From Heliocybe sulcata (Eukaryota; Basidiomycota; Agaricomycetes; Gloeophyllales; Gloeophyllaceae): 64,000 nucleotides of DNA. Of this stretch, positions 33,025 to 36,701 are shown one piece after another. The position numbers and the translations under genes were made by a program. Where the stretch lies: contig ML213506.1 of NCBI GenBank assembly GCA_004369045.1, forward strand, positions 870,264 to 934,263, written 5' to 3'. The notes beneath the pieces are model-generated. The model made no database searches. It was not told the origin of the DNA and saw nothing but the letters and a program-made list of their open reading frames with translations. The number at the start of each line of letters is the position of its first letter. Positions within the stretch are counted from its first letter, which is position 1.

Positions 33025-36000
33025 ATGGCCTATCCATCCTTCAGGCCGCTCCCGACACCGCCTGCGATGGTCTCTGCAGGGTATTTCAACCGCGACGACG
33101 ACGATGTAATGACTAGCGACGCCTATGCCTACGCCAACCCCTATTATTCTCATTATCCCCCTTTCGCACCGCGTACACAACCTTTGAACCATCAGCCCAA
33201 GACATCACTACCCGGAGGCACTCTACTGCACAAAGGATTCTACGATCTACTGTCTATGATCCCTACTCCCTCAAATTCTCGCTTCTTGTGGGGCGGTCAA
33301 GGCGACGAGCCTGTAGCTGGACCGCGGTATGAAGATATTGCAAACGGCGCATACAGTCCGCCTGCCGCGGCTCCATTGCCCAGTAGTCCTTCTGCTGCTG
33401 TGAAGAGAGGACGAAAAATAAGCAAAGATATGGTTTCCAAACCCACTGGATTTATGTAGGTGATGGCGTTGGGTCTAGCTGGTACCCCCTATATTTAACG
33501 TGAAATATCATGCTAGCCACTTGGTGCATGCTTCCGATGCTGATCAGGCTGAGGCTCTCCTTCGTCGCTGGGGACCGGACGGTATGGGCAAGCTAGGAGG
33601 TTAGCGTAACGCTTCTGTCGGCATTGCTCTGCACGACTGACTTTCGGGTCGTAGACCCCAGATGGGCGGACCCGATCAAGAGCCGAGTGCGCGCCAACAA
33701 CCAGGCGAAGGCTGTGAATGAGGTTGTGAATGCCCTCAAGCCGTCTGTCAGCAGACAAGATCAGCTTCCGCCTCTACGAGTTGTTAATGGTATGAGTACT
33801 GCCTCATCTTCGGTCATAACGACCGCGGCCAGGGAAAATGTGAGCGTCACTCCTACTCTGGAGGGCTTACCAGGGCAACCTGGAAATTCCACTATCCGAT
33901 GGGCGGGAGGCCTCATGGCTCACCCGGAACATGAACACGAGGACGAGGACGAGGACGCGGCCTTGATGCAGAAAGATGTTCCTGCGGTCCCTCCGCCACC
34001 GCGAAAGCCAATAACGCCCTCGTTGGCTACTTTGGAGAAAGCGGTCGCAGCCAGGATATATTTCGAAAATCTGTACTTCCCACTACTTCGGCAGCCCCCG
34101 TCCCGTGAACAGAGAAGACTCGCGATGGAACGCGATATGGCCAACATGCAGCTAAGCGAGGCCCAGAAAGAGAATTTACGTGCTCGCTGGCGCCAGAACG
34201 AGACAGATTATCTCCGGGAACGCAGACGAAGGGTAGATCCGAGCGGCTTCATTAAGCTTAAGACGATCGGGCACGGTCAGTGTCATTATCCTCTGTCTGG
34301 CAGCCGGCTAGATTTGATTTAGGTGCTTTTGGTGTTGTGTCGCTCGTGAGAGAGCGGTCATCGGGTCAACTCTACGCAATGAAGCAGGTTAGATTCTCCG
34401 CGTTAATCTCATGCGGTGCACCGATTCTCATCATGCGTGGACTTTATCGCCATGCTTCACAGCTGCGGAAAACGGATATGCTGCGTAAAGGTCAAGAGGG
34501 CCACGTTCGCGCCGAGCGAGATATCCTCAAATCAGCGGCGCTCGTCAGCTCGCCCGGGGCTGGCGAGTGGATTGTCAAGCTTCATTATAGTTTCCAAGAC
34601 CGTGACCACCTTTATCTGGTCAGTTCGGCTTCTACCTTTTGCCATCATAAACTATCCCACACAATCGAGGGAAATGAATTCATTGATTTCATATCGATTT
34701 CATATCTCGACAGGTACTTGACTATATGGGAGGTGGTGATCTTCTCAATCTACTGATCGAACGGGATGTTTTTGAAGAAGACTTTACTCGTTTTTATGTC
34801 GCCGAGGTGCGTTCCTGTCTCCTGGCGTTCTGGGCTCTGGAGATGTTCATTCCATTTTAACTCTGGTTCATTCATTGCACGCGGACTTGCCCGTCTGGTA
34901 CTAGATGGTCCTCGCTATCGAAGCTTGTCATAAGCACGGATTTATTCATCGTGATATCAAACCCGACGTAAGTCCCTCGCTGCTTCTGCCGGTGGACAAG
35001 GGAATGGCTATCAATGACTCCGGTTGTCCTCCTTGTTTCTCAATATAGAATTTCTTGTTTGACCCTAGTGGCCACATCAAACTGAGCGATTTTGGTCTGG
35101 CGTACGTCACCTCTCCTGCGGCCAGGTCCTCCCCCTGCCCGACGCTGACACTTTTTTGACGCTGCTAGAACCGACTTGCACTGGGCGCACGATACCTCAT
35201 GTCCGGTCTTCATTGTTGAAGGCAAAAGATGGCCGCTGACTTCTGTCGGGCACTTCCGTAGATTATGAACAGCAACGCCTGCATCTTCTGCATAAGCATG
35301 GCATCGACCTTGAGGACAACCATGGCTTGTCTGATGGAACGCGTACGAAACGCATGAATCGCAAGGACGTCGAGATGCTTATGGGAGGCGGTGACGGAAG
35401 TGGCGGCATCTTCACCTGGCGGGAGAAGAACCGACGCAAGGTGTGTATGGTGCGCATGGGAAATGAACGCTCCCTAACCATTCATCCCCCCCATAGCTGG
35501 CGTATTCCGTGTAAGTATCATAAATTACCCCCGTGGCAGATATGTTCTGAGGCGTTCATGCTCATATTTAGATGCGGTACAAATTCGTACAGTGAGTTGG
35601 CACGGATCATCCCGAGTGTAACCGCTTCATCGTTGCCCAGTGTCGCCGGAGGTCATACGTGGGCATGGTTATTCTTACTCTTGCGACTGGTGGAGTCTCG
35701 GTGTCATCATGTTCGAATGCCTGTATGGGTGAGGATCAGTCAAGTCACACTGCCCCTTCCGTCGCTCACCGTCATTATACTATAGTTATCCGCCTTTCGT
35801 CAGCAACTCAGTGAGTACTTGCCTATGCTCCATGCTGAACGCACCTCTCATTGACGGCCTCGGCTGCTTGCTCGCCTGCGTCGTCGCGCTATTTGTGGAT
35901 GTTCCGTGCTTGACGGTTTGCTTGTTGCTGGTCTCTTCATGAACAGCGCCATGTCACCCGTCAGAAAATCTTGAACTGGCGGCAGTCATTACGCTTCCCT

Positions 36001-36701
36001 TCCAAACCTCGCGTCTCCCATGAAGGCGTCGATTTGATGCAGCAGCTTCTATGTGAACCCGAGGATCGGCTGGGATCACAGGCTTCTGCTTCGACCACTA
36101 GGCCGAACTCGCTGGTGGTGCAGCAAAGGCGGAGTGGCTTCATTACGCCGACTGGGCTTACCGGCGGCAGCGTGGACGGAGCAGATATTATCAAGGTACG
36201 GTCTTGGCATGTCGCTGGTACTATGACCCCTTCCCCTCCCCGCTCATTCTTGTCTCAAGGCACACCCATGGTTCCGAGGGATAGACTGGGAAAATATGCA
36301 TCGTTATCCTGCTCCTTACCGTCCAGAGCTCCGCAACCCCGAAGACACACGACACTTTGACCAGGACATCCCTCCGGAAGTAAGGTGCTGATTCCTGCAC
36401 GCCGTGCACAATACTGATGAACCTGTCTCAGCCTCTGGCGCCGGCCAACGGGGCCCCCGCAGATGCGACCAGGGACCCTCTCTTAAGGGACAAAGTACAC
36501 GGTCAAGAGATTCTGGAAGTCCGCAAAGCACTTGCTTTTGCTGGCTTCACACACAAGAGCCCAAGGCCCATCACATACGTTCGGGCCGACAAGGCGTTTG
36601 ACCCTCAACCCGACACGTACGGCCAAGAAGAGACCCAGCGGGGCCGTTCGACCGTCCGTACCATCCAGGACGTGGGCAAAGGGCGCGCTATGTCATTGTG
36701 A
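33025..36701 (+). CDS. NDR-family AGC kinase with N-terminal CRIB-like domain
   Basis: Seventeen exons (33025-33455, 33517-33599, 33655-34275, 34323-34387, 34463-34618, 34714-34806, 34905-34967, 35049-35101, 35169-35200, 35262-35440, 35497-35510, 35572-35591, 35641-35728, 35786-35810, 35947-36195, 36260-36379, 36432-36701) encode 853 aa. A Pro-rich N-terminus leads to a CRIB-like motif near residues 131-149 (SKPTGFIHLVHAS), which straddles the first intron. Then comes the NDR N-terminal regulatory helix ([13 protein letters not shown]). The kinase domain has GAFGVV, YAMKQ, HRDIKPDN and DFGLA. It carries the NDR-type long insert before GTNSYMSPE and a C-terminal hydrophobic motif FAGFTHK. NDR kinases work with Mob proteins in morphogenesis and mitotic exit. 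CRIB motifs bind Cdc42/Rac. Exons of 14 and 20 bp encode the start of the activation segment. Confidence 0.9.

Follow-up and report, generated by a model that had tools for sequence, protein, structure and literature searches.

Can a kinase of the NDR type be a direct effector of Cdc42 or Rac? The question is raised by a gene in a 64,000-nucleotide stretch of Heliocybe sulcata DNA (GenBank assembly GCA_004369045.1, contig ML213506.1, positions 870,264 to 934,263 of the forward strand), which at its full length is called the window here. The host genome comprises 31.6 Mb in 51 contigs. A first-pass annotation of the DNA had proposed that the gene fuses a CRIB motif to an NDR-type AGC kinase. 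In what we consider the best reading, a divergent, minimal CRIB recruits the NDR kinase to active Cdc42 or Rac; we hold it tentatively, as close to an even call.

A CRIB-like core in the N-terminus

The gene and the elements around the core are as follows.

33025..36701, + strand: whole gene, NDR-family kinase, 853 residues, 17 exons (hand splicing, frame kept to the stop)
33400..33414, + strand: basic patch VKRGR, residues 126-130, directly before the CRIB-like core (sequence)
33415..33529, + strand: CRIB-like core, residues 131-148, interrupted by intron 1 (18.3 bits with a seven-CRIB profile; 13.2 bits with Pfam PBD, below cut-off)
33456..33516, + strand: intron 1, 61 bases, GTAGGT...CTAG, splitting motif codon 144 (sequence, hand splicing)

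The consensus of the CRIB core is I/V-S-x-P-x(2-4)-F-x-H-x2-H, and basic stretches precede such cores. The predicted protein reads V137-S-K-P-T-G-F-I-H145-L-V-H148, in agreement with this consensus. The first-pass annotation had placed SKPTGFIHLVHAS at residues 131-149; the string is present in the protein, but it occupies residues 138-150. We regard the core as CRIB-like with moderate confidence, judging from its sequence.

A profile built from seven CRIBs, with the candidate excluded, gave the N-terminus 18.9 bits and an expectation value (E) of 0.00091 among 20,002 sequences, nearly all of which were 300-residue shuffles. With the profile from MAFFT alignment A1, the full protein scored 18.3 bits (E 0.013 at the size of the PDB, 177,635 sequences), a level that no N-terminal shuffle out of 20,000 attained. 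HMMER filters were switched off when the candidate was scored; the filter setting of the PDB search with the A1 profile is not stated. At E up to 10 that search returned 20 PDB sequences, all of the PAK or WASP family without exception and several of them members of the profile itself. The weakest, at 13.5 bits, was an annotated PAK (4mit_E).

Nine variants of the profile gave the candidate E-values of 0.00091, 0.032, 0.16, 0.19, 0.0005, 57, 55, 0.017 and 1.2. The longer core was not reached by any of 20,000 shuffles in seven of the nine; in the other two, both WASP variants, 75 and 105 shuffles reached it.

Pairwise comparison of the N-terminal 300 residues pointed in the same direction for two of the genome's own CRIB proteins. 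Against WASP, a 24-residue stretch was aligned with KIDKSMISGPTQGSFIHVAHMGYDDQ at a score of 57, and against the Cla4-type CRIB, VSKPTGFIHLVH was aligned with VSNPTNFVHKVH at a score of 47. Each score was reached by 3 of 5000 shuffles.

Gene structure and intron 1

The gene lies on the strand and over the span claimed for it, the 17-exon model staying open until the stop at 36701, and all 16 introns (by hand splicing) are bounded by GT and AG. The motif straddles intron 1, as had also been claimed; the intron falls inside codon 144 and the frame is kept after the splice. Retention of the intron would place ATG-TAG (Met-stop) immediately after GF, and skipping of exon 2, which is 83 bases long, would break the frame. 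The start codon has the context GCCATGG, and the open frame, which runs from 32797, contains no ATG in frame before it.

When model residues 301-853 were re-aligned to the window with splicing, exon 3 ended at the same place and the ends of exons 4-17 were recovered. The result concerns the consistency of the kinase half alone; it is neither independent nor transcript evidence, and the intron 1 junction lies outside it. The gene model is sound.

An NDR-family kinase

The kinase half contains the following features.

34041..34238, + strand: NDR N-terminal regulatory (Mob-binding) region, residues 301-366, with Mob-contact positions Y312, R322, R325, T355, R359 and R362 (alignment to Cbk1; Mob-contact residues of NDR kinases as named in PMC4917820)
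34254..36509, + strand: kinase domain and C-terminal extension, residues 372-790, with HRD 498-500 and DFG 518-520 intact (Pfam Pkinase 3.5e-59; Cbk1 best PDB match, 3.7e-108)
35091..35645, + strand: long activation segment (residues 519-605) containing KNRRKLAYS; Ser596 occupies the position of the NDR activation-loop serine (alignment)
36531..36557, + strand: hydrophobic motif LAFAGFTHK, residues 798-806, with Thr804 (by eye, against LAFLGYTFK of the genome's own Cbk1-type gene)

PDB sequences were searched at E up to 1e-10. Among the best 60 of the 1307 sequences, the nearest relatives were yeast Cbk1 (3.7e-108), human STK38 (5.1e-90) and then MRCK-beta (3.2e-69). The domain was not that of a PAK (Ste20-type, STE group), the nearest kinases in this set being Cbk1, STK38 and MRCK.

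Alignment to Cbk1 revealed the conserved-arginine Mob-binding region. T355, R359 and R362 stand opposite Cbk1 S337, R341 and R344, and R322, R325 and Y312 stand opposite NDR1 R41, R44 and Y31, where the placing of the NDR1 numbers and of Cbk1 S337 is presumptive. From DFG 518 to AYS 594 the activation segment spans 76 residues, beyond the range of about 30-60 given for NDR/LATS kinases (PMC7096357). The C-terminal hydrophobic motif of the NDR/LATS family is also present. LATS kinases reportedly have a histidine where Tricornered-like kinases carry Phe or Tyr (PMC7096357); two papers number this site differently, as 645 or 646, and the window protein has L311-Y312 there, so that the site does not discriminate between the Mob classes.

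The Cbk1 alignment and the PDB matches thus bear out the earlier description of an NDR-type kinase with an N-terminal helix region, a long activation loop and a hydrophobic motif. They support an intact NDR-family enzyme.

The genome has two further NDR genes, named from alignment and reading. The Cbk1/Orb6-type gene (L028) is 69% identical to yeast Cbk1 (spliced-alignment score 1434.5), and the Dbf2/Sid2-type gene (L032) scored 597.5 in spliced alignment. Since these two are already present, the window kinase is by its sequence a third NDR paralogue. Its identity over aligned positions was 51% to STK38, 46% to L028, 46% to MRCK-beta, 44% to yeast Cbk1 and 34% to L032. In a FastTree tree of nine sequences it joined STK38 and two Cbk1 sequences with a support of just 0.713, and MRCK-beta came next. 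Support at the key node was low, and the tree served only to separate the window gene from the Cbk1-type and Dbf2-type genes.

Limits of the likeness to CRIB

A number of results weigh against the core being a CRIB, or against the arrangement proposed, and are brought together here. When the N-terminus of 300 residues was shuffled 200,000 times, the bare pattern S-x-P-x2-F-x-H-x2-H appeared in 9 of the shuffles. For a proteome of roughly ten thousand proteins this amounts to about half to one chance match; the bare pattern is therefore weak by itself.

The E-values of the custom profiles are optimistic, the seven CRIBs and the N-terminal extension of the profile having been picked after the candidate was known, and E was below 0.05 in just four of the nine variants. 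The two WASP variants failed (E 57 and 55). In the variant with a 13-column core (E 1.2) an unrelated reading frame equalled the candidate at 9.9 bits. The six-frame background consisted of 418,737 residues; it excluded the genome's three true CRIB loci but included the window gene, and several of the top background scores (L024 and others from contig C4) were the window gene's own exons. Likeness to the genome's own Ste20-type CRIB was at chance (809 of 5000 shuffles).

The search of the N-terminal region with the Pfam p21-binding domain model (PBD, PF00786), which the first-pass annotation had suggested, gave a signal that fell short. Pieces of 73 and 33 residues scored 13.2 bits (E 0.11-0.12), below the curated cut-off of 21.3 bits, and the 60-, 148-, 294- and 853-residue forms, the last being the full protein, gave no match. 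The same model, run against the six-frame genome, yielded four matches above the cut-off. By reading, these were three genes: a Ste20-type PAK (C8), a Cla4-type PAK (C11, two exons) and WASP (C11). The fifth match, at 14.8 bits (E 1.12), was an apparently non-coding stretch with an internal stop, which by eye adjoins an apparent NADPH oxidase gene. This indicated that a score like that of the candidate can arise meaninglessly in the genome.

The genome's own Cla4-type core, trimmed to 38 residues, still had 37.6 bits with Pfam PBD, and its WASP core matched Pfam GTPase_binding at 21.2 bits, a model that matched none of the candidate pieces. On the other hand, the true WASP CRIB trimmed to 34 residues had merely 12.8 bits with Pfam PBD, against 13.2 for the candidate. 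Low scores of bare cores with PBD thus do not exclude a CRIB. The 31-residue core alone had no match in the PDB.

The region following the core is represented by one element.

33696..33737, + strand: residues 186-199, the stretch earlier likened to a PAK helix (not significant against three own-genome PBD C-halves)

Where a PBD has Val-Gly and the hairpin, the protein continues after H148 with Ala-Ser, and no second half of the domain was recognized. Residues 149-220 were compared with three PBD C-halves encoded in the genome, those of WASP and of the Ste20-type and Cla4-type proteins, and 28%, 16% and 30.5% of 4000 shuffles, respectively, reached the score. Control pairs of true PBD tails gave 0 of 4000 for Cla4-Ste20, 0.65% for WASP-Ste20 and 29%, which is at chance, for Cla4-WASP, so that the power of the test is limited. 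The first-pass annotation had likened residues 186-199 to the AVLDVL helix of PAK. This reading was dropped, the region being no nearer to the three C-halves than shuffles were.

Orthologues were sought as well. Two scans of viral contigs gave no relative. A scan of genome contigs gave eight loci in bacterial records, all matching the kinase half only (query residues 202 onward of 556), and none of the eight covers the CRIB-like region. Within its own genome the N-terminus had three matches, all in the window kinase gene. In the nine-sequence tree the Dbf2-type kinase (L032) fell outside MRCK-beta, leaving no single NDR/LATS group.

The core is thus credible but unproven as a CRIB. A full PBD is not supported by the sequence, because the Pfam cut-off was missed, the C-half is unrecognisable and Val-Gly is lacking.

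Some other matches and observations were recorded for this region. Matches to DUF7095 and DUF952 were below the cut-offs of those models and were dismissed as chance. The alphaRep/HEAT-type PDB matches of the 73-residue region (15 sequences) were sums of weak repeated stretches, each with E >1 among the five alignments shown, and were likewise set aside. Upstream of the core, residues 69-91 (window 33229-33297) looked distinct by eye and may be a second conserved motif; they had no Pfam match. The genome's own WASP (L036, G000:C11:482500-489500, about 3382-4383) retains its CRIB, with 30.4 bits for Pfam PBD and two extra residues in the core. Yeast Las17 is not known to have a CRIB.

Interpretation

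In the reading that we prefer, the gene product is a third NDR kinase that depends on Mob and would bear, in its N-terminal extension, a minimal, divergent CRIB of WASP/Cla4 flavour. GTP-loaded Cdc42 or Rac would bind the core, probably as an added beta-strand, and this binding would bring the kinase to the membrane at sites of polarised growth. The kinase might then be switched on by a Mob protein and a Ste20-type kinase acting upstream, through the N-terminal region and Thr804; activation by Mob binding and hydrophobic-motif phosphorylation is the scheme described for NDR kinases (PMC7096357). The second half of the PAK/WASP domain is unrecognisable, and for this reason recruitment, more than relief of autoinhibition, would be expected as the chief effect, as suggested for MRCK. 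Candidate partners are encoded in the genome, which has seven matches to Mob proteins on three contigs and five exon matches to Cdc42/Rac-class GTPases on four contigs, the best of them 77% identical to the Cdc42 query. Control of the window kinase by Cdc42 or Rac, as first proposed, is plausible. What the sequence shows is the gene structure, the features of an NDR kinase and the match of the core; binding of a GTPase, recruitment and the Mob partner are inferred. A broader statement, that a separate fungal NDR subfamily is a direct Cdc42/Rac effector by way of an N-terminal minimal CRIB and so joins Rho-GTPase and Mob/Hippo-type inputs, is possible, and we would put forward no more than a cautious case for it.

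The match could also be a coincidence. In that case the N-terminus would be a tail of a third fungal NDR kinase, conserved poorly or in another way, and residues 131-148 would not bind Rho GTPases. We think this rather less than probable, though far from fanciful. The Pfam score was sub-threshold and was lost on longer pieces, an apparently non-coding stretch outscored the candidate at 14.8 bits, a proteome should contain about one bare pattern by chance, and the PBD C-half is unrecognisable, all as coincidence would have it. Against coincidence, the longer match arises less often than the bare pattern, with no shuffle in 20,000 reaching it in seven of the nine profile variants, and the A1 profile recovered no PDB proteins at E up to 10 except PAK and WASP family members.

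The region may instead have been a true CRIB formerly, or belong to a broader conserved N-terminal domain of the subfamily, with GTPase binding lost or changed and residues of about 68-205 docking another partner. The missing Val-Gly would fit this, as would the 25-residue stretch after the core, which is not PBD-like and yet does not appear to be of low complexity, and the motif-like look, by eye, of residues 69-91. The region lacks any Pfam model above its cut-off, which tells against such a domain, and we consider this explanation unlikely. An error in the gene model, with intron 1 spliced elsewhere or exon 1 derived from another transcript, would mean that the motif is never made. The motif does exist only across the junction that the re-alignment of residues 301-853 did not include. 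Against such an error stand the standard donor (GTAGGT) and acceptor (CTAG), the stop or lost frame that intron retention or exon skipping would bring, and the start context described above, and it seems very improbable.

Other open frames in the window

Pfam matches were also seen in four other open frames.

30524-31312, - strand: homeodomain (3.7e-11), a short way upstream of the kinase gene and on the opposite strand to it
58723-59949, - strand: iron-only hydrogenase large-subunit C-terminal domain (1.6e-24), which we take to be probably a Nar1-type iron-sulphur assembly protein
55468-56301, - strand: DUF3632 (4.3e-38)
7528-8472, + strand: KH RNA-binding domain (7e-14)

Comparison with known systems

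The first-pass annotation had treated CRIB as a trait of PAK and not of AGC kinases. The window kinase is indeed not of the PAK type, but the contrast was incomplete, as the MRCK proteins are AGC kinases with a CRIB (PMC3940853). In MRCK (CDC42BPA/B/G) an AGC kinase is joined to a CRIB, and the best 60 of 1307 PDB matches place MRCK-beta close to the window kinase. MRCK differs in that its CRIB lies in the carboxyl terminus, after the C1-PH-CH domains (PMC3940853), whereas the core in the window protein is N-terminal. Pfam gave no match to C1, PH or CH in the window protein, which has the NDR N-terminal region instead. CDC42-GTP did not increase the activity of MRCK-alpha towards myosin light chain in vitro, and recruitment was suggested as its main purpose (PMC3940853).

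With Cbk1/Orb6/COT1 and STK38 of the Tricornered class, the window protein shares the Mob-binding residues, the long activation segment and the hydrophobic motif. It differs from Cbk1 in its 300-residue N-terminus with the CRIB-like core, in a Pro-Pro inside the first Mob-binding stretch, in GTNSYMSPE where Cbk1 has GTPDYIAPE, and in a C-lobe insert after RLG that is not in Cbk1; the genome also has its separate Cbk1-type gene, L028. Schizosaccharomyces pombe has three such kinases, Orb6, Sid2 and Ppk35 (PMC2078597); like the window kinase, Ppk35 is the third NDR kinase of a fungus and might be its orthologue. Ppk35, compared here by description, was grouped with Dbf2/Sid2 (PMC2078597), whereas the window kinase is nearer to Cbk1. 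That the two are orthologous would be a guess.

The likeness to WASP and Cla4/PAK is in the core sequence, which is GKIDKSMISGPTQGSFIHVAH in the genome's own WASP and VSNPTNFVHKVH in its Cla4-type kinase. Those proteins differ in that Val-Gly or Met-Gly follows the core and the PBD match extends further, and the PAKs have Ste20-type kinase domains. Divergent but functional CRIBs outside true PAKs have been described for four Dictyostelium PAKL kinases, cited as a personal communication (PMC1420674). In the part of the Giardia kinome paper drawn on, PBD/CRIB is assigned to PakA alone (PMC3218828).

A CRIB on an AGC kinase (MRCK) and CRIB-like domains outside true PAKs are therefore known already. 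Among the matches listed from the open-licence PMC literature, no paper had a CRIB on an NDR kinase in its title or the start of its abstract. As far as this limited literature shows, an NDR kinase with a CRIB on its N-terminal side would be a new arrangement.

Both NDR kinases and Cdc42 direct polarised growth, and a contact between the pathways exists already: in fission yeast, Orb6 controls Cdc42 by phosphorylating the exchange factor Gef1 (PMC5011436), a link that is indirect. If the preferred reading is true, a direct link from Cdc42 or Rac to an NDR kinase within one polypeptide would allow the order of the two pathways to be tested. Together with MRCK it would also make two independent pairings of a CRIB with an AGC kinase, which would show that the two were joined more than once.

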